Below, in pieces: positions 1,715 to 26,049 of a DNA stretch of 26,391 nt. Position 1 is the stretch's first letter, and each line of letters begins with the position of its first letter. The notes under the pieces were generated by a model. The model worked only from the letters and a program-made list of their open reading frames with translations. It did not search any database and was not told the DNA's origin. Source of the stretch: a virus; the IMG/VR virus record IMGVR_UViG_3300021517_000018, positions 1 through 26,391 of that record; one strand, written 5' to 3'. A program made the position numbers and the translations under genes.

Positions 1715-2629
1715 CTACTTCTTCGACTTCTTCTTGCTGCCCTTCTTGGCAGCCGCCTTGGCCTTCTCCGCGGCCTGCTTCGCTTTCGCCTTCTTCACGG
1801 CGGGCGAGTCCAGCTCGGAGCCCTTCTTGGACTTGGCCGGCTTCTCCTCCGGCTCCTCCTCGGTCTCCTCGGGCTCGGACTCCTCGGCTTCCTCCGCCTC
1901 GTCCGACTCCTCGGTCTCCTCGCTCTCGTCGTCGACTTCCTCCGCCTCCTCGTCCTCGTCCTCGGACTCCTCCTCGGCTTCTTCGTCTTCGGAAGCCTCC
2001 TCGGACTCCTCCTCGGACTCGTCCTCCGAGCCCTCGTCCTCGGACTCGTCGCCGCCCTCGTCATCGCTCTCCTCGCCCTCCGCCTCCTCCGTCTCCTCGT
2101 CCTCCGTCTCCTCGGCGTCGTCGCTGGAGGAGTCCAGCTCGGCGTCGGGCGGGAGCCACTTCGCGACCTTGTTCCGGTCTTCCCCGTTGTACGAGTCGCC
2201 CGCGAGGTACGCGCGCAGCTCGACCTCGTTGTCCTCGATGTACTGGAGCAGCTCGTCGACCGCCTTCATGTTGCGCATCACGGTCGGGTCGTTCGGCTTC
2301 TTCTTCGGGCCGCTCTCCAGCTTCAGCTTCTTCGGGTAGCCGGCGGCGTACGCGAGGAAGGCGATTTTCTGCAACGAGAAGCCCGGCGACAGGGAGGCGA
2401 ATTCCACGACCTCCTTCTCGTTCCCGGTGATTTCGTCCTCCGTGTTCAGAATCTTGAACACGAGCATCCGGTTCGGGTAGCTCTTGGGGGACTTCTTCCG
2501 CCACCCCTTCGGCCCCGGCCTCCCCTTCGACTTCAGCGCGAGAGCGTACGCGCCATCATCGACGGGGAGTGACTGCGTGGGCTTCTGGCCCGGGTTGTAC
2601 TCGATGACCTTCGCTTCACCTTTCGGCAT
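1715..2629 (-). CDS. putative ssDNA-binding-like protein with acidic and basic tail
   Basis: Encodes 304 residues. Residues 1-162 look like a compact domain: a beta-rich part (GAYALALKSKG at 26-36, MLVFKILNTEDE at 55-66, EVVEFASLSPGFSLQKIAFL at 73-92) followed by helices. This layout and the position directly after a Sak4-like ATPase resemble DUF669/single-strand-binding proteins of phage recombination modules; that is inference, not a motif match. Residues 163-262 are almost only Glu, Asp and Ser (with some Ala, Thr, Gly), and 263-304 are Lys/Ala-rich, giving an acidic then basic tail. Acidic tails in phage SSBs recruit partner proteins; the extra basic end is unusual. Start ATG follows GAAAGG about 9 bases upstream. 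Confidence 0.75.
   Translation of the reverse strand: MPKGEAKVIEYNPGQKPTQSLPVDDGAYALALKSKGRPGPKGWRKKSPKSYPNRMLVFKILNTEDEITGNEKEVVEFASLSPGFSLQKIAFLAYAAGYPKKLKLESGPKKKPNDPTVMRNMKAVDELLQYIEDNEVELRAYLAGDSYNGEDRNKVAKWLPPDAELDSSSDDAEETEDEETEEAEGEESDDEGGDESEDEGSEDESEEESEEASEDEEAEEESEDEDEEAEEVDDESEETEESDEAEEAEESEPEETEEEPEEKPAKSKKGSELDSPAVKKAKAKQAAEKAKAAAKKGSKKKSKK
1844..2143 (-). repeat. low-complexity GAG/GAC/TCC codon repeat (acidic tail)
   Basis: About 300 bases composed almost entirely of Glu, Asp, Ser and Ala codons (GAG, GAC, TCC, GCC) encoding residues 163-262 of the preceding feature. The repetition is irregular rather than a strict tandem array. It creates long false open frames on the other strand that read as Ser-rich protein. 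Such DNA is prone to slippage, so length may vary between relatives. Confidence 0.8.
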
Positions 2630-9716: not shown

Positions 9717-9806
9717 TCAGCTCAACAGCCAATGAAGGGTGGCGATGATGACCACCCAGATTGCGACGGTTAACAGCGCATCTACCACGTGTTCTCGGAA
9801 GGTCAC
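9717..9806 (-). CDS. 29-residue single-span membrane peptide
   Basis: A small gene not obvious at usual length cut-offs. GTG at 9806 overlaps the TGA of the upstream gene (GTGA), and it ends TGA at 9717, 24 bases before the next start. It begins MTFREHVVDALL, then a continuous hydrophobic stretch with VAIWVVIIATL, ending HWLLS: one transmembrane helix with a short charged N-terminus. It has little ribosome-site signal of its own, so translation would depend on coupling. It could be a membrane-acting peptide or a helper of lysis or exclusion. The evidence is the overlap, hydrophobicity and the absence of anything else to fill the 110-base gap. Confidence 0.5.
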   Translation of the reverse strand: MTFREHVVDALLTVAIWVVIIATLHWLLS

Positions 9807-10018: not shown

Positions 10019-10657
10019 TCAGACCTTCTCGATGCTGAGGCTCTCGGACTTCTGGAGCCGCGCCTCGTCGATGACCTTGGCCGGGTCCGCCTTGGGCATC
10101 TTCTCCTTGATGATGGCGATGGTCATCTGCTCGTTGTACTCGTACGTGGTGACCGGGTTGCAGAGCTTGAGCCAGTCGACGCCGAGCTTCTCCGCGAGCT
10201 GCTTCACGTCCGCCATGCCGGGCGCGTTGCCCATCTTGTGGCGCTGCACTTCGCGCTCCGCCTTGTACGTCTCGCCGCCGTAGTCGAGCACCAGCTCCGT
10301 TAGCGGCTCCTTCACGCGCTGCCCGTCGCGCTCGACCTCGTGCTCGCGCATGTGCTCCTTCAGCGCGGTGTTCACCATCTTGCGCATGTCGTCGATGGGC
10401 TTCTTCCACAGCTTGTCGATGATGTAGTAGCCGGCCTGCATCATCGGGAGCGTGACGTGCTCGCCGCTCAGCAGCGAAGCGAAGTTCTCCATCGCCTTGA
10501 TGACCGCGTCGCTCGCGGCCTGCATCTGCTGCGCGCGAGTGAGCTTCCGCTCGGGCTCCTGCTTCGTGAGCGCCGAGCCGACGTAGTTGGTCGGCTTCTG
10601 ACCTGCGGCGCGGGCGGTGACAGTCTTGGACGGCTTCTCGTTCTTGGGGTTGCTCAT
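10019..10657 (-). CDS. hypothetical protein, first gene of a leftward unit
   Basis: Encodes 212 residues, ATG with AGGAGACC upstream. The N-terminus (about 45 residues) is Lys/Thr-rich and probably disordered; the rest is helical (AMENFASLLSGEHVTLPMM, KKPIDDMRKMVNTALKEHM) with a beta segment (PLTELVLDYGGETYKAEREV). No catalytic motif seen. One of the four operator-like palindromes lies 25 bases upstream of the start, suggesting this gene begins a regulated segment. It is followed closely by four small genes and then the RepA-like ATPase. Confidence 0.78.
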   Translation of the reverse strand: MSNPKNEKPSKTVTARAAGQKPTNYVGSALTKQEPERKLTRAQQMQAASDAVIKAMENFASLLSGEHVTLPMMQAGYYIIDKLWKKPIDDMRKMVNTALKEHMREHEVERDGQRVKEPLTELVLDYGGETYKAEREVQRHKMGNAPGMADVKQLAEKLGVDWLKLCNPVTTYEYNEQMTIAIIKEKMPKADPAKVIDEARLQKSESLSIEKV

Positions 10658-10682
10658 CTGCTGGTCTCCTGACCACGTTTGC

Positions 10683-10703
10683 CGGTTGGCACCATGCCCA
10701 CCG
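10683..10703. promoter_or_regulatory. operator-like palindrome, copy 1
   Basis: Imperfect 21-bp palindrome (plus strand arms CGGTTGGCA and TGCCCACCG around a short centre) 25 bases upstream of the start of the leftward gene at 10657. It aligns base for base with three further copies at 13086, 13736 and 15098. Symmetry of the arms, and conservation in non-coding DNA, suggests a protein-binding operator or a conserved 5' leader hairpin. Confidence 0.6.
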
Positions 10704-10817
10704 GGTGCTGCTGAAAGATGCGCCCGGGTTCACGCCTTACCGGGCATGGCGCTAGTACGGGGTTCGAGCCTGCTTTCGCAGCTACCGGTCATTGCCGGCC
10801 ACCCGCCTTGTAGACCT
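10704..10817 (-). other. hairpin-rich gap between leftward genes
   Basis: Between the HNH gene and the gene at 10657 the minus strand can form several short stems: CCGG with loop CAATGA and CCGG, CTGC-GAAA-GCAG (a GNRA loop), and CCCGG...CCGGG. There is also a 43-codon open frame ending in a TGA that overlaps the next ATG, but it has no usable start codon. It is too GC-rich to be confident. It could be a structured leader or a decayed gene. Confidence 0.35.
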
Positions 10818-11204
10818 TCAATCCTCTGCGGCGCTCACGCGCCCTTCCTTCCGCCTCGCCACGCCGTCCATCCGATTGCACGGACGGCACGCAGGGCGGA
10901 GCTTCACTCCCCGCTTGTACTCCTCCACGTAGCGGTCGACGCGGGCGTCATACCGGAACTGCTTCGCGCGCCAGCGCTTGCCGCGTTCGTGGTCGACCTC
11001 CAGCTCAGAAAGGCGGTGCGTCTTCCCGCAGATTGCGCAGTGCGGCTTCGCCGTCTTCGACTTCTTCGCCTTGAACCGGTCGAGACAGAGCTGCCGAATC
11101 AGCTCCCGGTGCAGCTTCTTCGCGCGGCGCATCCGGCGCTGCCGGTACTCCCTGCGCTGCTCCGGCGTCGTTCGCTCGCTGTACGGTTTCTGCTCTCGCG
11201 TCAT
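10818..11204 (-). CDS. HNH endonuclease-like protein
   Basis: Encodes 128 residues from ATG at 11204 (a GTG 12 bases earlier is an alternative; neither has a strong ribosome site). A basic N-terminal helix (residues 10-50) precedes an HNH fold: C56-x2-C59 (CAICG), E-V-D71-H72 (the catalytic His region), and LRPACRPCN (C106-x2-C109, N110). Zinc-binding CxxC pairs flank the core as in many phage HNH proteins. It could be a homing nuclease, a packaging-associated nuclease or a defence nuclease; it is far from the terminase genes, so the packaging role is less likely. Confidence 0.85.
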   Translation of the reverse strand: MTREQKPYSERTTPEQRREYRQRRMRRAKKLHRELIRQLCLDRFKAKKSKTAKPHCAICGKTHRLSELEVDHERGKRWRAKQFRYDARVDRYVEEYKRGVKLRPACRPCNRMDGVARRKEGRVSAAED

Positions 11205-11221
11205 CGGTGTGCTCACTCTGC

Positions 11222-11244
11222 CTGTTCGTCCACCACCCGTCAAG
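11222..11244. repeat. duplicated 23-base element, copy A
   Basis: On the minus strand this reads TTGAC then GGGTGGTGGACGAACAG. A nearly identical copy (one base inserted and one substituted) lies at 13125-13148. Here the TTGA includes the stop codon of the lipoprotein gene, and the element fills the gap upstream of the HNH start. It may be a promoter-like or translational element, or the trace of a duplication. Confidence 0.5.
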
Positions 11245-11422
11245 GGGCGAATCGCCACCCGTCGTCATCGCAGCACCCGAAGTCGATGCACGCGTTGTCG
11301 GAGCTGCGACGTTCACAGCAGCGCGGGTACTCGCACGCCCAGCTCAGCGTGCCCGCGTCGAGTGCGGCGGAGCTGTTCGCCCCGCCACACGCCACCACCA
11401 GCATCAGGACGAGCGCGCGCAT
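11240..11422 (-). CDS. small Cys-rich lipoprotein
   Basis: Encodes 60 residues. ATG at 11422 (TGATG with the previous stop, GGAG 8 bases upstream). The N-terminus MRALVLMLVVAC is a short signal peptide with lipobox V-V-A-C, so C12 would be acylated and the protein anchored in a membrane. The mature part has seven further cysteines (C31, C35, C36, C44, C50, C51 among them) and many Asp/Arg residues, suggesting disulphide bonds in the periplasm or at the surface. Unlike the Rz1 lysis lipoproteins it is not Pro-rich. Superinfection exclusion or host-surface function is possible; unknown. Confidence 0.72.
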   Translation of the reverse strand: MRALVLMLVVACGGANSSAALDAGTLSWACEYPRCCERRSSDNACIDFGCCDDDGWRFAP

Positions 11423-11982
11423 CACTTCAGCTCCTGCACGCCGTCGAAGTTGATGTTCACCACGCCGTGTTCGGTCATCTCCACGAGCGTACGGAGCTTG
11501 ACCTTTGTCTGCACGAACAGCTCGACTTCCTCGCCCATGAAGCGCTCAATCCAGAGGCGCAGCACGACCTGCCCTTCACCGTCTCGCAGCTCCACGGAAC
11601 GCGGCAGCTCCTTGAGGTTCAGCGCACGCAGCTCTGCGCTCAGCCCCTCGATACGTGCGGCGTGGTCACGCTGCGCTGCGGCACAGCGCTCAGCCGCTGC
11701 GGCGTCAGCCTTGGCGCGAGCGCGCGCCTTTTTTGCGTAGCGCTGCACCAGCTCCTGCACTCCCTCCTCTGCGGTCTTGCCGTTGTAGTTGAACCAGACG
11801 TGCTCACCGTACCCGTAAGCGCGCTTCTCCCACTTCAGGTCTAGCTCAGTGCGCCACTGGAATTCACCGTAAACGCGACGACCCTGCTGGACGATTCGGT
11901 ATCGCTGGGGAATCGTGACGTTCATCGTGCGGCACGTCGCCTCGAACATCTCTCGCAGGTTCGGAATCTTCGGGGTGCTCAT
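11422..11982 (-). CDS. hypothetical coiled-coil protein
   Basis: Encodes 186 residues, ATG with AAGGAGAAGCC upstream, overlapping the preceding TAA by one base. An N-terminal alpha/beta part (RYRIVQQGRRVYGEFQWRTE, GEHVWFNYNGKTAEEG) is followed by an Ala/Lys/Arg-rich helix about residues 75-120 that may form a coiled coil, and a beta-rich C-terminal part (EGQVVLRLWIERFMGEE, VVNINFDGVQEL). No enzymatic motif. Next downstream is the lipoprotein gene. Confidence 0.75.
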   Translation of the reverse strand: MSTPKIPNLREMFEATCRTMNVTIPQRYRIVQQGRRVYGEFQWRTELDLKWEKRAYGYGEHVWFNYNGKTAEEGVQELVQRYAKKARARAKADAAAAERCAAAQRDHAARIEGLSAELRALNLKELPRSVELRDGEGQVVLRLWIERFMGEEVELFVQTKVKLRTLVEMTEHGVVNINFDGVQELK

Positions 11983-12287
11983 TAGGGCTTCTCCTTCCTC
12001 GGGTGTTCTCCACGGCTGATGCTCAGCAGCGCATCAACCCAGCTCGTGTCACCGGGCATGGTCTGCCACACCCGGGACACCTCCTCGTCTTCTTCGCGCG
12101 ACACGACGCCCACGAAGTCGCCAGCGCTGGAGCGGTTCTCCCAGATTTTGCGAGCACGCTGCGGCGTCAGCCACGTCGGCTCGAATTTCTTCTCGCCCCT
12201 CGCGTTGCAGCACAGCTCATCATGCTTTCCGGTGCGGTCGAACGAGTCGCACGCCTTGCCTAGCCAGTTGTTGCAGTTGCGGCGCAT
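11982..12287 (-). CDS. hypothetical protein with conserved MPGDTSWVDAL-type motif
   Basis: Encodes 101 residues, starting MRRNCNNWLGKACDSFDR. The C-terminal half (RARKIWENRSS, SREEDEEVSRVWQTMPG, DTSWVDALLSISRG) follows a pattern (V-W-x-T-M-P-G-D-x-S-x-x-D-A-L) that I recall from small phage and plasmid proteins of unknown role. Cysteines C5, C13, C26 and C27 could bind metal. GGAGGAGAGC lies upstream of the ATG. Confidence 0.75.
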   Translation of the reverse strand: MRRNCNNWLGKACDSFDRTGKHDELCCNARGEKKFEPTWLTPQRARKIWENRSSAGDFVGVVSREEDEEVSRVWQTMPGDTSWVDALLSISRGEHPRKEKP

Positions 12288-12290
12288 GGC

Positions 12291-12776
12291 TTAGCTCTCC
12301 TCCCCGTCGTACATCACGGTGTACTCCAGCACGTCGCACGCGGGGTGACCCCAGAGGTCGCACGTGTGGCTGAAGTAGCTCTCCCCGTCGCAGCTCACGA
12401 TGCGCCCGGGAGCCACGTAGTCCTCTGCCGCCTTCAGCCACTTCATGTCGTCGTCTTCCAAGCCGCTCACGTCTCCGTTGATGAGGGCGCTGGCGAGGTA
12501 AGCGGGCAGGGTTACCGTCTCCGTGCGCCACTTGCGGTTCGGTTCCTTGAAGCCGTACCGCTCGCACAGCGCGTCGTAAATCTCCCGCCCGTTTTCGGTG
12601 AGCGTCTCCGTGCTGAGGTTCGGGCGGGGCTTGAAGCCCAACCGCGAGAGCTGCACGGAAGTCGCTTCGCGCCGTCGAGCGTTGCTCGGACGCTCGCGTA
12701 CCCACCCGCCACTGTTCCAATCCCATTCGAGGCAGGCATACGCTTCGCAGATGTCGAACCGGTCGAAGGTAGGCAT
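12291..12776 (-). CDS. conserved phage/plasmid hypothetical protein
   Basis: Encodes 161 residues starting MPTFDRFDICEAYACLEWDW. This opening, the middle segment LTENGREIYDALCERYG and the end (SCDGESYFSHTCDLWG, DVLEYTVMYDGEE) are recurrent in phage and plasmid accessory proteins whose function is not known. Six or more acidic and Cys residues occur near the C-terminus. RBS GGAGAG before ATG. Its neighbour at 12780 belongs to another recurrent accessory family, so the cluster looks like a mobile accessory gene set. Confidence 0.75.
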   Translation of the reverse strand: MPTFDRFDICEAYACLEWDWNSGGWVRERPSNARRREATSVQLSRLGFKPRPNLSTETLTENGREIYDALCERYGFKEPNRKWRTETVTLPAYLASALINGDVSGLEDDDMKWLKAAEDYVAPGRIVSCDGESYFSHTCDLWGHPACDVLEYTVMYDGEES

Positions 12777-12779
12777 GGG

Positions 12780-13067
12780 TCAGCTCTCCACCGTGAAAGC
12801 CGCGCGCGGCGAGGTGCTGCCATCCGCTCCGCGCGGAACGCAGACGTACACGTATGCTTCGGAGTTGCTTCGCGGGAGCGAGCCCTCGAAGAAAGCCCCG
12901 CGCCAACCGAGTTTGCGCGCCAGCGCCAGCGCTACGAGCCGCGCGTTTGCGGACGGCTCGACCGCGTAGTCCTGCGCGAGCGTGACGCTCCCCGCGTCGC
13001 ACTTCGCACGCCAGCGGGAGCCGCGGGTGTTCGTCGGCGGGATGTACTTCACGGTAATTGCTTGCAT
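12780..13067 (-). CDS. conserved phage/plasmid hypothetical protein (MQAITVKYIPPTNTRGSR type)
   Basis: Encodes 95 residues from ATG at 13067 with CGGAG upstream. The N-terminal block MQAITVKYIPPTNTRGSRWR and the following beta-rich part (KCDAGSVTLAQDY) are typical of a small conserved protein found in many phages and plasmids, function unknown. A longer frame reaching 13241 crosses an operator-like palindrome and lacks a ribosome site, so I reject it. One palindrome copy lies 18 bases upstream of the start. Confidence 0.78.
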   Translation of the reverse strand: MQAITVKYIPPTNTRGSRWRAKCDAGSVTLAQDYAVEPSANARLVALALARKLGWRGAFFEGSLPRSNSEAYVYVCVPRGADGSTSPRAAFTVES

Positions 13068-13085
13068 GTGTCTATCTCCGTTCAG

Positions 13086-13106
13086 CGCTGGACAACATGC
13101 CCAACG
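13086..13106. promoter_or_regulatory. operator-like palindrome, copy 2
   Basis: Arms CGCTGGACA and TGCCCAACG around a three-base centre, 18 bases upstream of the start at 13067. Same element as the copies at 10683, 13736 and 15098. Confidence 0.6.
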
Positions 13107-13117
13107 TGGCAGTGCAG

Positions 13118-13147
13118 CTCTTAGCTGTTCGTCCACCACCATGTCAA
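13118..13147 (-). promoter_or_regulatory. candidate leftward promoter within repeat copy B
   Basis: On the minus strand a perfect -35 TTGACA (13142-13147) is followed after 18 bases by TAAGAG, a weak -10 (3 of 6). It precedes the operator-like palindrome by about ten bases, so a transcript would begin near 13111. The weak -10 keeps confidence low. Confidence 0.35.
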
Positions 13148-13148
13148 G
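13125..13148. repeat. duplicated 23/24-base element, copy B
   Basis: Minus-strand reading CTTGACATGGTGG then TGGACGAACAG; partner of the element at 11222-11244. It overlaps the candidate promoter and lies in non-coding DNA. Confidence 0.5.
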
Positions 13149-13149
13149 A

Positions 13150-13165
13150 TGCGAGCGCGCTCGCA
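13150..13165. promoter_or_regulatory. 16-bp perfect palindrome upstream of the TTGACA
   Basis: TGCGAGCG followed by CGCTCGCA, a perfect palindrome immediately upstream (in the minus orientation) of the TTGACA hexamer. A stem GCGCGGC / GCCGCGC also lies at 13178-13201. Together these mark 13068-13221 as a compact control region. Confidence 0.45.
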
Positions 13166-13221
13166 CCCTCACAAAGTGCGCGGCGAATCGCCCAGCCGCG
13201 CCGTGGGTTCGGAGAGAAAGG

Positions 13222-13455
13222 TCAGTCGAAGTCAGGGTCACTGCTGACGGGCTTGCCGAAGCGGTTCAACCCGTAGAGAAAGAACCCCGGGTTGAGAGAG
13301 TCGCTGCTGGTCTCCGCCCAGCGCGCCTCACCCGAGATGAACCCCGCGACCACGGCTTGCTTGACGGCGTGATAGTCACCCTCGAACACTTCCGGTGAAG
13401 TCCACACGCTGCCGTCTTTCTGGCGCTGCTTGAGCACGTACCGGTAGGCGTTCAC
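13222..13455 (-). CDS. hypothetical protein
   Basis: Encodes 77 residues from GTG at 13455, which overlaps the preceding TGA (GTGA) and has GGGAG 9 bases upstream. The sequence has a beta-hairpin-like character (YRYVLKQRQKDGSVWTSPEVF, AVVAGFISGEARWAE) and ends in an acidic tail PVSSDPDFD. Function unknown. Confidence 0.72.
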   Translation of the reverse strand: MNAYRYVLKQRQKDGSVWTSPEVFEGDYHAVKQAVVAGFISGEARWAETSSDSLNPGFFLYGLNRFGKPVSSDPDFD

Positions 13456-13715
13456 AGCGTGAAGCTCCCGTGAACGAGGCGGCGCTTCGCCACGTGGCTG
13501 GCGATATTCACCGCCATCAGCGAGTCAGCCGCTTCCACTGCGGCGAAGTCGATGCGGTCGCCGTCGACCGCGTGTGAGCCCCGCTTGCCGTGTTCCTCCG
13601 CCGCCTGCCGCGCGAGGTCGAGCGCGCTCTGGAGCGTCAGCTCCGCAGGGTACAGCGGCATGACGTGCTGATGCCCGTCGCGGTACGTCACCACCACAAA
13701 AACCTGATTCGTCAT
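13452..13715 (-). CDS. hypothetical protein
   Basis: Encodes 87 residues from ATG at 13715 (MTNQVFVVVTYRDGHQHVMPLY); a longer frame to 13748 lacks support. Ribosome site GGAGAGACGA. An operator-like palindrome lies 20 bases upstream. The N-terminus is beta-rich, then a helix (ALDLARQAAEEHGKRG), and the C-terminus is basic. No family recognised. Confidence 0.72.
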   Translation of the reverse strand: MTNQVFVVVTYRDGHQHVMPLYPAELTLQSALDLARQAAEEHGKRGSHAVDGDRIDFAAVEAADSLMAVNIASHVAKRRLVHGSFTL

Positions 13716-13735
13716 TCGTCTCTCCGATGCCGCAC

Positions 13736-13756
13736 CGCTGGTCACCATGACCAGCG
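13736..13756. promoter_or_regulatory. operator-like palindrome, copy 3
   Basis: Arms CGCTGGTCA and TGACCAGCG, perfect 9-base arms around a three-base centre, 20 bases upstream of the ATG at 13715. Same element as 10683, 13086 and 15098. Confidence 0.65.
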
Positions 13757-13766
13757 GGCAGGGCGA

Positions 13767-13788
13767 AGCGGCGAGGTAGCTCGCCGCT
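13767..13788. terminator. hairpin after the DUF932-like gene
   Basis: AGCGGCGAG and CTCGCCGCT form a perfect 9-bp stem with a 4-base loop, just downstream (minus sense) of the DUF932-like gene. There is no following T run, so if it ends transcription it does so weakly; it may instead cap an mRNA end. Confidence 0.4.
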
Positions 13789-13803
13789 CACCCTGCTGTC
13801 AGC

Positions 13804-15069
13804 TCACTTCGGCCAGCCGTTCATCAGGACTTCACCGGACATGCGCTGAATACGGAGCGTGTCTTCCCAGCTCCGTTTCTCGCGCGTGTCCGCCGCCACG
13901 ATGGCGAGCGCTGCGGCGAAGTGCGCGGCGCTCCCGTGCGGCAGCGAGCGGAGGCGAGCGTCATCCGCGATGACCGCGGCGAGCGCCTTGACCAGCTCCG
14001 GTTCATCGCCCGCGGGAACGCCCGCTTCCTGGAGCGCGTCAGCGAGCACGCGCACCGCGAAGTCATCGGCCACAGTCGCCTTGCACAGAGGGACGAGCGC
14101 CGCGAACACCTCGCCGCGTGCTTTCTCCCACCGCTCAGCGAGCACGCGCGAGCCAGCGAGCGCGACCTCGATGTCTGCCGCGATGCGTTGCTGCGCAATC
14201 TCGCCGCGCCGTTCCTCGCTGATGCGGTTGCCGCTGCTGGAGCTGTAGCGCGGCAGCGTGTGACGGCGGCGAGTGGTCGCACTGTTCTCGGCGGCGAGAC
14301 GCACGATGCGCTCGTACCGCTCGCCGCTGGGCATGACCACGGTCGCGTCGAGCACAGCGAGGCGGAGCGCCGCGGAGAATGAAAGCGAGGCGCATCCCGT
14401 TTCGCTGTTCTGGAGGTAGAACGAGAGCGCAACGTCAGCGTTGCCCGCGTCCAAGTCGAAGCTGCCGTGAGTCACATCCCAGCCGCGAGACACGCGAGCG
14501 CGGACCGGTGTCTCGTCAAGCTCTGAAATCACTTTGAGCACAGCAGCGTCATCGAAGTGTTTCAGCGAGTGGCGACCGCTGACGACCGCGCGGATGGCGG
14601 GGTTCATGCTGCCGTTTGGAGTGCGAGCGCGGAACATGCGGAGGATTCCTTCCTCAGTGCGCGGGCGCTGCGAGGTGCGGACCACGTCCGCCCAGCCATG
14701 ATGACGCGTGAGCGGTGAGAGCCAACGCAGGGCGTTGGCGACACCCGCGGGAGCGCCCTGCGCACGCATCAGCGAGACGAGTTGAGACCACGCATGCGGC
14801 GTGTAGCAGGCTCCGCCCTGCCCACGGACCAATGCGCCATCGCGGTGGTCGACGCTGAGAGAGTGCAGCGAGCTGATGGGCACGTCGCGGAGCTGCTGTT
14901 CCTCGATGCGCTCCGACCACTGCCGCATGACCTCGCTGAAGTCCCCAGCGGGGACGTAGACGGCGGGGCCTTCATGCGTCAGAGCGGCGTCGAATTCGAA
15001 CGGCTGACGAGTGAGAGCCGCTGCCACAGCGGCGGGCGGCGGGGGAACGGCGCGAAGTGCGGCAGTCAT
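13804..15069 (-). CDS. DUF932-like phage protein, first gene of the leftward arm
   Basis: Encodes 421 residues. RMFRARTPNGSMNPAIRAVVSGRHSLKHFDDAAVLKVI (about 141-178, recognised by the A-V-x-S-x-R-x-x-x-x-x-D pattern) and the later SETGCASLSFSAALRLAV block fit the general layout of DUF932/phage-plasmid proteins, whose role is unknown. The N-terminus is Ala/Pro-rich and the C-terminal third is helical. As the gene nearest the divergent control region it is likely the earliest leftward product. GGAGAGACC precedes the ATG, and an operator-like palindrome lies 28 bases upstream. The family call is moderate: the motif match is by eye. Confidence 0.7.
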   Translation of the reverse strand: MTAALRAVPPPPAAVAAALTRQPFEFDAALTHEGPAVYVPAGDFSEVMRQWSERIEEQQLRDVPISSLHSLSVDHRDGALVRGQGGACYTPHAWSQLVSLMRAQGAPAGVANALRWLSPLTRHHGWADVVRTSQRPRTEEGILRMFRARTPNGSMNPAIRAVVSGRHSLKHFDDAAVLKVISELDETPVRARVSRGWDVTHGSFDLDAGNADVALSFYLQNSETGCASLSFSAALRLAVLDATVVMPSGERYERIVRLAAENSATTRRRHTLPRYSSSSGNRISEERRGEIAQQRIAADIEVALAGSRVLAERWEKARGEVFAALVPLCKATVADDFAVRVLADALQEAGVPAGDEPELVKALAAVIADDARLRSLPHGSAAHFAAALAIVAADTREKRSWEDTLRIQRMSGEVLMNGWPK

Positions 15070-15097
15070 TTCCAGGTCTCTCCGATGCGCAAGGCTC

Positions 15098-15118
15098 CGC
15101 TGGGCACCGTGCCCAGCG
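15098..15118. promoter_or_regulatory. operator-like palindrome, copy 4
   Basis: Arms CGCTGGGCAC and GTGCCCAGCG, perfectly paired around a single central base: the most symmetric of the four copies. It lies 28 bases upstream of the DUF932-like start. Confidence 0.7.
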
Positions 15119-15146
15119 CGCTTGCTGCCGCAGCGCTAGTGCAGAA

Positions 15147-15175
15147 CAAATACCAGCGCCACATGACACACGCAA
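15147..15175 (-). promoter_or_regulatory. weak candidate leftward promoter
   Basis: On the minus strand TTGCGT and TATTTG are separated by 17 bases, with TGG forming an extended -10 before TATTTG. Each hexamer matches consensus at 3 of 6 positions. A transcript would start near 15140 and carry the palindrome in its leader. Confidence 0.3.
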
Positions 15176-15246
15176 GTGCGCAGACGTGTTCGGAGTGCGA
15201 GTGAAAACTGCAAAACATGATGACATAGCTTCCCGTGCCAAGGTGC

Positions 15247-15260
15247 GAGCATGCATGCTC
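15247..15260. promoter_or_regulatory. 14-bp palindrome within TGCATG repeats
   Basis: GAGCATG followed by CATGCTC is a perfect palindrome; TGCATG recurs near 15268 and 15315. A possible binding site for a regulator or initiator. Confidence 0.4.
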
Positions 15261-15525
15261 CACATGGTGCATGCGCGCTGCAGTGCTACCAGGGCGCATG
15301 GTCGAGTGTCCGAGCGTGCATGACGGGCGCTGACGTACGAGCGCCGGGCACCCGCTGCCGCCGCTCCCGCGGCGTGAGCAGCGGCGCACCCGTGCCGCAC
15401 CGCTCACGGCGGAGCTTCGCCCGCGGAGCGGGCGGTGAGCACCCGACACCCCTCCCGCGCCGCGCACCCCACGCCCTGGGCGGTAGCCCCGGGGCGCGGG
15501 GGCGGGAACGCGAGCCTTCACTCCG

Positions 15526-15551
15526 CGCGTGCGCGCGTGAACGCGCACGCG
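15526..15551. other. hairpin in the control region
   Basis: CGCGTGCGCG and CGCGCACGCG form a perfect 10-bp stem around a 6-base loop. No following T run. Confidence 0.45.
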
Positions 15552-15570
15552 ATGACCCCCGCCCCCTGCG

Positions 15571-15589
15571 AGCCCCCCACCGGGGGGCT
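15571..15589. other. GC hairpin in the control region
   Basis: AGCCCCCC and GGGGGGCT pair perfectly around a 3-base loop. Very stable, no T run; function unknown. Confidence 0.45.
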
Positions 15590-15619
15590 GGCCGGGGGCC
15601 GTATAGGTCCGCACCTTGG

Positions 15620-15649
15620 TTGACCCCTCAATGCTCCATATCCTATACA
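15620..15649 (+). promoter_or_regulatory. rightward sigma-70-type promoter
   Basis: TTGACC (15620-15625) and TATACA (15644-15649) with an 18-base spacer match the -35 at 5 of 6 and the -10 at 4 of 6 positions, in a local AT-rich stretch inside GC-rich DNA. It would start transcription near 15656, about 70 bases before the first rightward gene, and should drive at least the regulatory genes. Confidence 0.65.
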
Positions 15650-15674
15650 CACCACACACCACCAACATCACAAC

Positions 15675-15703
15675 ACCCTAGCCCCCCTAGAGGGGGCTAG
15701 GGT
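15675..15703. promoter_or_regulatory. strong inverted repeat just upstream of the first rightward gene
   Basis: ACCCTAGCCCCC and GGGGGCTAGGGT form a perfect 12-bp stem with a 5-base loop, ending 20 bases before ATG and within the predicted leader of the rightward transcript. It has no T run; it may be an operator, an attenuator or a leader stabiliser. Confidence 0.55.
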
Positions 15704-15723
15704 TGGAGCCACAGGGAGGAAAG

Positions 15724-16320
15724 ATGAGTGAGAGAGAACAGAAGGGCTACAGCGTGTTCGGACACCCGGGCACTCGGTTCAAGGTCAAGAAGATGTCGGA
15801 CGGGAAGTGGGGCTGGGAGGTCTACGCGTGGAAGAAGGTTCTCGTGGACGGGACCGAGGACACGAAGGAGGCAGCGGAGAAGGCGATGATTCGCGCCGCG
15901 GGGAAGGTGCTGCTGAAGACCGCGAAGCAGGGCGCTGACCGCTCGAACCTCTACAACAAGCTGAAGGGGTTCTGCCGGAAACGCCCGTGGCTGAGCATCT
16001 TCGTGTTCGACGCCATCGTGAACGACATGGACCTGAGCACCATCATGGAGGCGGCGGCTGAGGAGGAAGAAGCTCGGCACGCCGCTGCGGTGGAGAAGCT
16101 CGGCATTGAGCCGCTGGACCTTCACCCGCTGGCGAAGCCGGCGAAGAAGGTCGCGGAAGCCATCTGGGAGACCGTCGAGAAGCTGGGCTGGGACCGGCAG
16201 CGCGTCGACCGCTTCGCGCGTGACTACCTCGGAACGGCGTACAGCAACCCGGAAGCAGCACGCCCCATCGAGGTGGATGCAGGAAAGAAGAAAAAGCGCG
16301 AAGCTGAAGGCGAGGAGTAA
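15724..16320 (+). CDS. hypothetical protein, first rightward gene
   Basis: Encodes 198 residues beginning MSEREQKGYSVFGHPGTRFK with a strong AGGGAGG site. The N-terminal part is alpha/beta (KVKKMSDGKWGWEVYAWKKV), then a long helix-rich region (RKRPWLSIFVFDAIVNDMDL, EAAAEEEEARHAAAVEKLG) and a basic Lys-rich tail. It is followed after 3 bases by an HTH gene and is likely co-expressed with it. I do not recognise the family. Confidence 0.75.
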   Translation: MSEREQKGYSVFGHPGTRFKVKKMSDGKWGWEVYAWKKVLVDGTEDTKEAAEKAMIRAAGKVLLKTAKQGADRSNLYNKLKGFCRKRPWLSIFVFDAIVNDMDLSTIMEAAAEEEEARHAAAVEKLGIEPLDLHPLAKPAKKVAEAIWETVEKLGWDRQRVDRFARDYLGTAYSNPEAARPIEVDAGKKKKREAEGEE

Positions 16321-16323
16321 ACG

Positions 16324-16635
16324 ATGGGACGTGCACAGGGCACGAAGCACAACTCGGCGTTGGCGGTGTGGCTGAACCGCGTTGGGATGACGAGCCGCGA
16401 GTTTCAGCGGCGGCTCGGAGACAAGAGCATGAGCCGCCTCTCGCGGTGGCTGTCCGGGGAGGAATTCCCGGGGCTGCCGATGGCGTACGAAATCGAGCGC
16501 ATCACGGAGGGCGGCGTCCCGATGGAAGCGTGGCTCGCGAGCAAGGGAGCACGCGCCATCCTGAAGACGATGCGCGACAAACAGCCCGAGGAATTCCGCC
16601 CGGCGAAGGACGACCTAGAAGACGCGGAGGAGTAA
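16324..16635 (+). CDS. YdaS/Cro-like helix-turn-helix regulator
   Basis: Encodes 103 residues. The helical DNA-binding domain is about residues 12-68: ALAVWLNRVGMTSREFQRRL, then SMSRLSRWLSG and AYEIERITEGGVPMEAWL. This matches the YdaS/Cro-type layout (L..V..S..EFARR-G, recognition helix, A-x-x-IE-x-T-G-G-x-V). Such proteins act as phage repressors or anti-repressors. It is a plausible ligand of the four palindromes upstream of leftward genes, but that is inference. GAGGAGTAA supplies both the previous stop region and ribosome site. Confidence 0.78.
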   Translation: MGRAQGTKHNSALAVWLNRVGMTSREFQRRLGDKSMSRLSRWLSGEEFPGLPMAYEIERITEGGVPMEAWLASKGARAILKTMRDKQPEEFRPAKDDLEDAEE

Positions 16636-17937: not shown

Positions 17938-19419
17938 ATGCGGCTGTCCCGAATCGAGAAGATGCGGCTGGAGTCTCAGCCGGTGCTCACTGCGCAGCAG
18001 CTCAGCTCCTTGGAGGAGCTGGCTGCGCAGATGATGGGTGGACCCCTCCACAAGACGCAGAGCGAGTACATCTTCTATGACGACAAGGTGAGCTGGCTGA
18101 CCGGGCCTATCGGCACCGGCAAGACCGCCGCCGCAGTCGCGCGGATGACGATTCCCGCGCTGTGCTTGCCCGGCAGCTCGTGGTTCGTCGGGCGCGCGGT
18201 GAAGTGGACGCTCGAAGAGACGACCCTGAAGGAGTACCTCTCCATCTGGTCTAGGTTGGGTCCGGGGCTCATCGTCGACAAGCAAGAGAGCCCCATCATC
18301 AAGTATTGGCTCGCGCCGGCTGTGCCCTCACCGGACGACGGCAAGGCTGAGCCGGTTGAATTCATCTTCCACAGCATTGACGACCTGGAGAAGCTCGGCG
18401 GCACGGCGTTCACCGGAGTGGAGGTGGACGAAGCGAACGAGATTACCCAGCAGCAGGCTGCGACGCTGGACGCGCGTCTCCGCAAGCGCCTGCGGTGGCA
18501 AAAGCAGCCGGTCGGACCCTTCTACCTGAACTTCGTGAGCAACCCGGTGCGCCGCTCGCATTGGCTGCACAAGATGTTCTGCGGCGAGGAAGACTGTGAC
18601 CCGGTGCCCTGGGGACGGAAGTTCCTCGCGGACAAGAAGGAGAACGAGGCGAACCTCCCGCCCGGCTACTACGAGGACCGCGCCAAGGGCATGACACCGG
18701 AGATGAAGCTGCGCTTCATCGAGGGGCAGTGCGGCCCGGACCCGGCAGGCGAGGGTGTGTTCGTGCAGGAATGGGATAACAACCTGCACGTACGCGACGG
18801 GCTCGCGAAGAACTACACGCGTGGCTTGGGAGGCATTCGCGGGTGGGACTTCGGGCGGCGGCGTCCCGCGTGCGTTATCGCGCAGAAGCAGCGCAATGGG
18901 CAGGTGTGGCGTCTGGCGGCGCAGATGGGCAACAACGAATCGCTGGAGAACTTCGGGCGCAAGATTCTGGCGCGGTGTGGAGAGCAGTTCCCGGGCATCA
19001 CGTCTTGGACGGACTTCTGCGACCCTCACGGCGACGCGAAGCGAGACGTGTCCGAGCAGACCAGCCTCGACGTGCTGCGCAGCTTGGGTGTCAATCCGCG
19101 CTCGCGGCACCACAGCATCGCGACGCGGTTGGAGCTGATGAGCAAGGGGCTGACGACTCTCGTCGACAAGAAGCCGCGCAGTCTCTACGACCGTACGAAC
19201 TGCGGTCTTTTGATTGAAGGTTACGGCGGTGGTTACTGCTGGCCCCCGGCGAGCCCTACGACCGGTGCAATCAAGGACAAACCGCTCGCAGATGGGTGGT
19301 ATGAACACCCGATGGACGCTGACGGATACATTGAAGTTGGGCTTGCAGGACCGCTCGTGGATACTTCGAAGTTTCCGACGAAGCTGCACAAAGTGCGGAA
19401 CCCGTACACGGGCCGCTGA
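17938..19419 (+). CDS. terL: terminase large subunit
   Basis: Encodes 493 residues. The ATPase half has Walker A GPIGTGKT (56-63), Walker B strand VEVDEANE (161-168, D164, E165) and a coupling motif around NFVSNP (198-203). The nuclease half carries RGWDFG (D304) and FCDPHGD (D362, D366), acidic residues expected in the RuvC-like fold. The C-terminal GYGGGYCWPP and YEHPMDADGY segments are typical of the terminase tail. It drives ATP-dependent packaging into the prohead and cuts DNA. No ribosome site precedes ATG at 17938; ATG at 17962 with GAGAAG is an alternative. Confidence 0.9.
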   Translation: MRLSRIEKMRLESQPVLTAQQLSSLEELAAQMMGGPLHKTQSEYIFYDDKVSWLTGPIGTGKTAAAVARMTIPALCLPGSSWFVGRAVKWTLEETTLKEYLSIWSRLGPGLIVDKQESPIIKYWLAPAVPSPDDGKAEPVEFIFHSIDDLEKLGGTAFTGVEVDEANEITQQQAATLDARLRKRLRWQKQPVGPFYLNFVSNPVRRSHWLHKMFCGEEDCDPVPWGRKFLADKKENEANLPPGYYEDRAKGMTPEMKLRFIEGQCGPDPAGEGVFVQEWDNNLHVRDGLAKNYTRGLGGIRGWDFGRRRPACVIAQKQRNGQVWRLAAQMGNNESLENFGRKILARCGEQFPGITSWTDFCDPHGDAKRDVSEQTSLDVLRSLGVNPRSRHHSIATRLELMSKGLTTLVDKKPRSLYDRTNCGLLIEGYGGGYCWPPASPTTGAIKDKPLADGWYEHPMDADGYIEVGLAGPLVDTSKFPTKLHKVRNPYTGR

Positions 19420-25305: not shown

Positions 25306-25317
25306 CTGGAGGACACG

Positions 25318-26049
25318 ATGGGCACCTTGACGCACGCGGAGCTGGTCACGGAGGCGCTGGAGCTGGCCGGCAACACCGGGCTCACTGCGCGTGCGCAGGT
25401 GTGGCTCGGGTTGGTCCTTCGGCACCTCAACGAGAAGTTCTCGTTCCCCCAGCTCGCGAACCTGAAGGCGGTCAAGGTCGTGACGGCGGGGACGAGCAGC
25501 TTCAGCGTCGGGCGAGACGCGAGCGCAGATGTGCTCGCGTCCGTGCAGGTGAACGGCATCGACCGTATCCTGATGGCGGCGAACGATGAGCTGGACTCGG
25601 AGTGGGAAGACCTCATCATCGAGTACATGCCGCGAGTCTCAGGCGTGGCGACCGGGCTCGCAGCCTCGTCGGGGCGTCCACGCGTGGCGATTGTCGAGAC
25701 GGACAATCAGGCGAACTTCGACGTGACGCTCGCACCGTACCCGGACGAAAGCTATCGGCTGCTCATCATCGCCAACTCGCTGGGGCTGAATCAGGCGACG
25801 TACAGCGCCGCAGTCGTGAATCCGTACCCGGATGACCTGACGGTGTTGCAGGGCATCTACGCTCTCGCGCTGAAGCATCAGCAGGACGAGCGAGCGCGCG
25901 AGGAGTGGGAGAAGTTCGAGGACATGGCGAAGAAGGACCGCGTGAGGTACGGCAACATGAATCACGCGAATTCGAAGGTGACGCTCGGGGGGCCGCACAA
26001 GCGGCGCAACCCTCGCGACCGCGGCCCGGGGTGGATGGGTCCGGTTTAA
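25318..26049 (+). CDS. head-tail adaptor / tail tubular-like protein
   Basis: Encodes 243 residues, CTGGAGGACACG before ATG. Helical N-terminus (LTHAELVTEALELAGNTGLT), a beta domain (VVTAGTSSFSVGRDAS, DVTLAPYPDESYRLLIIANS) and a long helical C-terminus (EEWEKFEDMAKKDRVRYG): the helix-beta-helix layout of podovirus connector or adaptor proteins (for example T7 gp11 or P22 gp4 type). The call is from gene order and shape rather than a motif. Confidence 0.65.
   Translation: MGTLTHAELVTEALELAGNTGLTARAQVWLGLVLRHLNEKFSFPQLANLKAVKVVTAGTSSFSVGRDASADVLASVQVNGIDRILMAANDELDSEWEDLIIEYMPRVSGVATGLAASSGRPRVAIVETDNQANFDVTLAPYPDESYRLLIIANSLGLNQATYSAAVVNPYPDDLTVLQGIYALALKHQQDERAREEWEKFEDMAKKDRVRYGNMNHANSKVTLGGPHKRRNPRDRGPGWMGPV

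Follow-up and report, generated by a model that had tools for sequence, protein, structure and literature searches.

The stretch of DNA analysed here, called the window, is the entire IMG/VR virus record IMGVR_UViG_3300021517_000018 (26,391 bases), which is probably a fragment of a larger genome. The element under study is a 21-bp inverted repeat that occurs four times in the window, in front of leftward genes. The same virus is represented by a 42.4-kb contig (G001), in which both query proteins are 100% identical to those of the window. Genes for an SNF2 helicase, AAA proteins, a uracil-DNA glycosylase and a family A DNA polymerase were found in the window, and the terminase and portal proteins matched annotated phage records. 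Gene content and these matches indicate a tailed phage, of which only environmental DNA is available. MW202477.1 (locus L028), whose terminase is 49.5% identical, was deposited as a podovirus.

Leader hairpins of the window

The four 21-mers were found at 10683, 13086, 13736 and 15098 (S1 to S4), exactly where an earlier note on this sequence had placed them, and their pairwise identity is 16–18 of 21 positions. According to our gene calls they lie, as that note had stated, in non-coding leaders, at the head of leftward gaps of 654, 160, 154 and 88 nt; no such hairpin occurs in the gaps of 110, 97, 83, 63 and 35 nt. On the leftward mRNA strand each copy forms a 9–10 bp stem closed by a three-base loop (C-A-[UGG/CGG/UGU]-U-G). 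The arms were previously described as CGCTGG-N-CA and TG-N-CCAGCG, which is exact for the copies at 13736 and 15098 only. The symmetry of the element is incomplete: the loop imposes one orientation, which in 4/4 copies is identical with respect to the gene.

All four hairpins and the genes behind them are on the minus strand, and the distances to the start codons fell within the 18–28 nt given earlier. S4 (15097..15119) reads CGCUGGGCA-CGG-UGCCCAGCG, has a possible outer stem GCAAG/CUUGC and is located 28 nt from ATG 15069, the start of a 421-aa gene (13804..15069) for which neither Pfam nor PHROGs gave a match at E 0.1. S3 (13735..13757) has a perfect 10 bp stem and the loop UGG; its 21-mer is 20 nt from ATG 13715 of an 87-aa gene (13452..13715), and the next gene is at 13222–13455. 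A second hairpin on the same strand (13758..13796, borders taken by eye from the dot-bracket structure) stands directly 5′ of S3; its stem is long, and one U is bulged out of it. S2 (13085..13107) has nine pairs, two of them G-U, and the loop UGU. It precedes by 18 nt ATG 13067 of a 95-aa gene (12780..13067; PHROG 3199), which opens a block reaching down to 10818. S1 (10682..10704), with nine pairs, one G-A mismatch and the loop UGG, is 25 nt from ATG 10657 of a 212-aa gene (10019..10657).

When the window was searched with a weight matrix of the four copies, these scored 27–29 bits and the best unrelated site 13.6, which sets the four apart; the copies' own reverse complements scored 12–24 bits. 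A strict version of the hairpin, defined as CA-YGK-TG plus six or more of 7 further pairs, was found four times on the minus strand and never on the plus strand, as compared with a mean of 0.2 and a maximum of 2 in 200 order-1 Markov controls, in a test designed after the sites had been seen. A looser test counting palindromes alike at 14/21 positions or more was less distinct (real maximum of 5, equalled in 8/200 controls). Two further candidates were discarded. A putative fifth copy at 9737–9757 (10 bits) is inside an open frame, VVDALLTVAIWVVIIATLHWLLS*, upstream of 9692 that probably encodes a small membrane protein. The match at 25316–25336 extends over the beginning of the rightward gene at 25318 and was attributed to chance.

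Counterparts in related phages

Relatives were collected with a terminase alignment scan, from which the best 80 of 211 were retained, and with a portal scan, which gave 11 loci. The sister phage G002 (locus L006) has a terminase 74% identical to that of the window, and its other matched proteins are 29–84% identical; in the more distant phage L031 the terminase is 42% identical. Besides G001, G002 was the only relative with the 421-aa gene in the relative scans and with the 212-aa gene in the viral_contigs scan; MW202477.1 has a 29% identical homolog of the 212-aa protein. Bacterial genomes were scanned twice (36 and 68 pattern stretches), and no relative was confirmed among them.

Three leader hairpins were found in G002: H1 (AGGTAGCGCATGGCGCACTACCT), H2 (CCGCCGTGCATGGCGCACGGCGG) and H3 (TCGCAGTGCATGGCGCACTGCGA). 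Their loop core, CAUGGCG, is shared with the window copies. Their arms are not those of the window, and the outer arms (AGGTA, CCGCC and TCGCA) also differ from one another, although every one of them can pair with the arm opposite. In L031 one copy was found; its stem is 13 bp long, its core is again GCATGGTG, and a short further hairpin follows downstream.

Two of the three G002 hairpins are at places syntenic with window copies. S1 and H3 are each flanked by homologs of the gene at 10818 and of the 212-aa gene, the latter being 52% identical in G002, with H3 in front of it. The product of gene 10818 is HNH nuclease-like by eye; it has no Pfam match, and its homolog in MW202477.1 is annotated as a PacI-type endonuclease. 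S3 and H2 both come after the 421-aa gene or its homolog. H1 and S4 both head a leftward cluster; the 421-aa protein has a 55% identical homolog in the block headed by H1, where one small gene separates the two. For S2 no counterpart was found in G002. H3 (L006 12611) starts immediately after the TAA that ends the homolog of gene 10818. S3 (13757) and H2 (L006 11264) each abut a second long hairpin without a spacer; in each of these second hairpins one U is bulged out (8 and 7 pairs away from the loop, respectively), and their sequences are unrelated. In the window and in G002 the 3′ edge of the hairpin is 17–28 nt before the start codon, upstream of a Shine–Dalgarno-like stretch.

A promoter-like sequence, TTGACR-N4-RGTGGACGA, was noticed at 13147 on the minus strand of the window, upstream of S2, and at L006 12158 (+), upstream of the G002 homolog of gene 10818. 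A copy one base shorter is present at 11243 on the minus strand of the window, before gene 10818 itself.

RNA hairpin or DNA site

Eight copies (four from the window, three from G002 and one from L031) were aligned as equal-length hairpins. The compensatory changes by which the earlier note had proposed to judge the arms were found, 7 of the 10 pairs being altered on both sides. In this set 91.3% of the cells were paired and 17 further pair types were counted, and among 500 shuffles none or one matched each statistic; in slid controls the paired cells fell to 26–48%. G6, C9, A10, G12 and G15 are invariant, and the C-G pair adjoining the loop is constant. The G002 and L031 copies had been recognized partly as hairpins. 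The motif CATGGYG occurs 20 times in G002: in the three leader copies 7, 8 and 8 of the 8 flanking pairs are formed, as compared with at most 5 in the other 17, and the background rate for 7 or more pairs is about 0.9%.

A model built from all eight copies (R1) was used to search 87 loci (1.19 Mb, some overlap). Its own copies scored 26–33 bits and the best other match, at 19.8 bits, was the complement of S4; searches of whole records were concordant. No R1 match was found in L118, an 8-kb fragment whose portal protein is 75% identical, and no hairpin match was found in the fragments G003, G010 and G011 (7.7–9.7 kb). Rfam at the gathering threshold gave no match in the window, L030, L031 or L006, and Rfam E-value searches of window 10500–15800 and L030 1000–7000 gave only matches far under threshold.

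The earlier note had placed the repeats among phage operators or stoperators and had named a shared leader hairpin as the main alternative. The leader hairpin is the part that found support, on the grounds of compensating arms, a conserved loop, fixed orientation, leader placement in G002 and scant room for a promoter. Repeated operators would be bound by a phage repressor, for example the predicted helix-turn-helix (HTH) protein at 16324, which is a nearby candidate gene under the Pfam cut-off. Within the window alone the arms are indeed similar and nearly palindromic. However, one half-site per genome would be expected, and the operator is disfavoured because the three G002 copies carry three different outer arms. 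G002 retains an HTH homolog (51% identity over 91 residues), yet its three sites share the centre only. Since H3 directly follows a stop codon, and H2 and S3 abut another hairpin, there is little or no room for a promoter. A set of operators is accordingly judged improbable. Because the loop is kept, the arms covary, H3 follows a stop codon and S3 and H2 abut hairpins, the copies look like intercistronic or 5′-leader RNA stem-loops, and what is recognized is probably the folded RNA and not a binding site in the DNA. Given the conserved loop, it is plausible that the four leftward segments form one control set.

The closest published element found concerns the same choice. In Cluster K mycobacteriophages, start-associated sequences (SAS) and extended SAS (ESAS) include inverted repeats just upstream of start codons, for which the authors found little support for RNA pairing in the passages available (PMC3203893). 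The window element is like them a short repeat with inverted repeats, in one main orientation, before a subset of non-structural genes. According to the same passages, the ESAS inverted-repeat consensus differs between subclusters, and ESAS have imperfectly conserved 17-bp half-sites with spacers of mostly 4–13 bp, mostly beside an SAS, whereas the element described here has a fixed loop spacer, compensating arms and a conserved core (PMC3203893). The 13-bp SAS GGGATAGGAGCCC, with up to three mismatches, had 4 matches in the window against a chance mean of 7.6, none beside the hairpins. Nor were 17-bp halves with a genome-wide consensus found, the outer arms of G002 differing among copies. The element thus resembles SAS/ESAS by position, lacks their defining sequence features and differs in its RNA covariation. 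A search of the open-licence literature found nothing closer, which is not a claim that the hairpin is absent from print. As far as the passages go, the role of SAS/ESAS still needs verification according to a later survey (PMC12699233), and their mechanism is still without a test in both sources (PMC3203893, PMC12699233). The present set is a comparable start-associated one that shows base-pair covariation and a nearly constant loop, pointing to control at the RNA level.

Other functions of a repeated hairpin in early leaders were considered together: hairpins that serve a phage RNA polymerase as promoters, as in N4, antitermination RNA (boxB or put) and intrinsic terminators. N4-type hairpin promoters require a phage-encoded RNA polymerase. 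PF00940 had no match in five records, a search whose controls were silent too, so that absence is not demonstrated; eight further G001 proteins were without a polymerase domain. No sigma-70 promoter was found in window 10500–15800. Lambda-type nut sites combine boxA, a boxB with a GNRA-like pentaloop and the N protein; the loop here, compared with boxB by eye only, is AUGGY. The hairpins do repeat at early leaders, and the tandem layout at S3 and H2 recalls the two adjacent stem-loops in the early transcript of HK022 putL/putR (PMC9378689). In the passages available, put is about 70 nt long, with bulges and a triplex, occurs once per early promoter and lies after it, whereas the unit here is a 23-nt hairpin, an adjoining second hairpin was seen at S3 and H2, and S3, H2 and H3 lie between genes (PMC9378689). 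Terminators were rejected, as no T run follows the four window or three G002 copies and no window hairpin is among the three terminator-like sites. As a group, these functions are considered highly improbable.

Possible role in early gene expression

On balance, the copies are read with moderate confidence as cis-acting RNA stem-loops of the leftward early/replication transcripts, whose loop would be recognized by a putative trans factor tuning four early blocks together. Before each of four genes, the stem-loop would have the upstream gene or promoter on one side and the Shine–Dalgarno sequence on the other. The comparison supports an element kept as a hairpin with the constant apical core C-A-Y-G-K-Y-G, while the letters of the stem vary in compensation. 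The loop may be recognized by a phage or host RNA-binding protein, or by an RNA. As the 3′ edge of the hairpin is near the upstream edge of ribosome binding, a factor that binds some 20 to 50 nt ahead of the start codon (about −20 to −50) could either hinder or favour loading. For each early cistron it would adjust how ribosomes load, how fast the mRNA decays, or both, and the four blocks would respond together. If a phage protein reads the loop, the pair would be a new RNA–protein pair usable as a regulator. Post-transcriptional control of T4 early genes also acts on mRNA near GGAG Shine–Dalgarno sequences; there, RegB cuts GGAG itself, and a leader hairpin that recurs with a conserved loop, like the present one, is not described in the passages available (PMC3014915).

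A number of results weigh against an RNA element read through its loop. The pairing counts are inflated, since the copies were spotted partly as hairpins. An unbiased count of repeated hairpin cores in G002 gave three copies of CATGGCG, also three of an unrelated core, CGCTGCG, and at least this number in 11/40 controls, which is not significant alone. H1 has a C-A mismatch, and the A-U at the loop of the window copies corresponds to A-C in each of the three from G002. A model built from the window copies only (R3) recovered H2 alone (20.9 bits) and missed H1, H3 and the L031 copy; it also gave a match of 19.1 bits, near the score of H2, inside a coding gene of G002, and scored the complements of the window copies at 14–27 bits. 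Of 13 records searched, counting G001, 3 are carriers, with sets in two genomes only, and nothing above 16 bits was found in G004, G005, G006, G008, G009, G012 or MW202477.1. The L031 copy is single and 41–44 nt upstream of a start. S1 and S2 are absent from the minimum free energy (MFE) fold of their own 98-nt leaders; in the case of S1, an upstream segment pairs with the hairpin in that fold instead. No RNA-binding protein was identified, and the AlphaFold model of the 421-aa protein is unreliable (predicted local distance difference test, pLDDT, of 34).

The segment at window 10740–10752, upstream of S1, is complementary to the core of the S1 hairpin and hides it in the MFE fold, which could be a switch or chance.

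The loop could also act as a start codon. Here the AUG of the loop (ACG in S4) would start a short leader frame ending at the downstream start, and translation of the two would be coupled. From the loop AYG, 6 of the 7 window and G002 copies reach a stop within −8 to +11 of the gene start, as compared with 1/14 when the two remaining frames are read; in the seventh, S3, the loop codon and the gene share a frame. The frames of S1 and S4 overlap the gene start as ATGA, and that of H2 stops at +5. However, this pattern was found post hoc, with the range of −8 to +11 set from the same data, and there is no clear Shine–Dalgarno sequence before the loop codon, which lies in a hairpin of high GC content. 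The codon of S4 is ACG, the frame in L031 extends to +188 and the peptides are not conserved. Coupling of this kind is regarded as unlikely to be the function.

Since hairpins are common in this clade, the main rival to a loop-specific binder is a set of general hairpins, in 5′ leaders or between cistrons, that serve mRNA protection or processing (RNase III-type cutting, or a 5′ end that is stable once cut); it is given a minor though appreciable likelihood. Hairpins with unrelated loops recur before start codons in this phage group (window 15675–15703 with its G002 counterpart, and nine elements of L030, from contig G006), and the long hairpin abutting S3 and H2 comes soon after a stop codon. 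Against it, the loop and the adjoining C-G pair are kept from the window to G002 while the stems change. The energy model gave no advantage to UGG, CGG or UGU over other triloops, a comparison that says little since the values printed for other triloops are identical. T7 RNase III sites are intercistronic hairpins between a stop codon and the next ribosome-binding site, repeated along the early genes, with longer irregular stems and no known shared loop; stems of 9–10 bp, as found here, are short for RNase III. The 65-nt elements of L030 resemble the T7 sites more than the window copies do.

The window hairpin at 15675–15703 (+) has a 12-bp stem, ACCCTAGCCCCC-CTAGA-GGGGGCTAGGGT, and is 20 nt from the first rightward gene. 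G002 has a 12-bp hairpin of unrelated sequence 19 nt before the homolog of that gene. On the minus strand of L030, a 65-nt three-helix intercistronic element occurs in nine copies before leftward genes, just ahead of ribosome-binding sites (6458–6395, 5992–5928, 5539–5477, 5128–5064, 4864–4802, 3028–2964, 2483–2419, 1881–1819 and 1453–1381). It consists of an outer stem (often GTTGAG/CTCAAC), a short GGG/CCC stem, an internal loop and a variable hairpin, and shows strong covariation (14/19 pairs doubly changed, with the structure derived from the same alignment). A model of it (R2), trained on eight copies, found one more. The element has no Rfam match, and nine other records gave only weak matches (14.4 and 10.7 bits).

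A wider reading of the element as a loop-read RNA stem-loop is put forward tentatively. Within an uncultured clade of podovirus-like phages, the hairpins might form a dispersed RNA regulon, in which intercistronic hairpins with a shared loop would be read by a putative factor and early blocks would be switched together post-transcriptionally. Sister phages might use other hairpin modules in the same layout, such as the nine L030 copies, and the loop may hold the start codon of a coupling frame.

In L028 (MW202477.1) a different start-associated repeat was seen, a GACCTCTCA-N3-TTGGAGTA-like motif containing the Shine–Dalgarno sequence, before the early genes 7107, 8178, 11114 and 12137 and, in a looser form, at 18707 and 6320 (−). 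Scans of the window and 10 loci gave no transfer RNA (tRNA). A stretch on the minus strand of L031 (about 1268–1140), where ARAGORN called no tRNA, ends in a T-arm-like GGGTTCGACTCCC and an acceptor-like complement. Window 1715–2629 encodes a 304-aa protein, without a Pfam match at E 0.01, whose C-terminal part is very long and Asp/Glu-rich.

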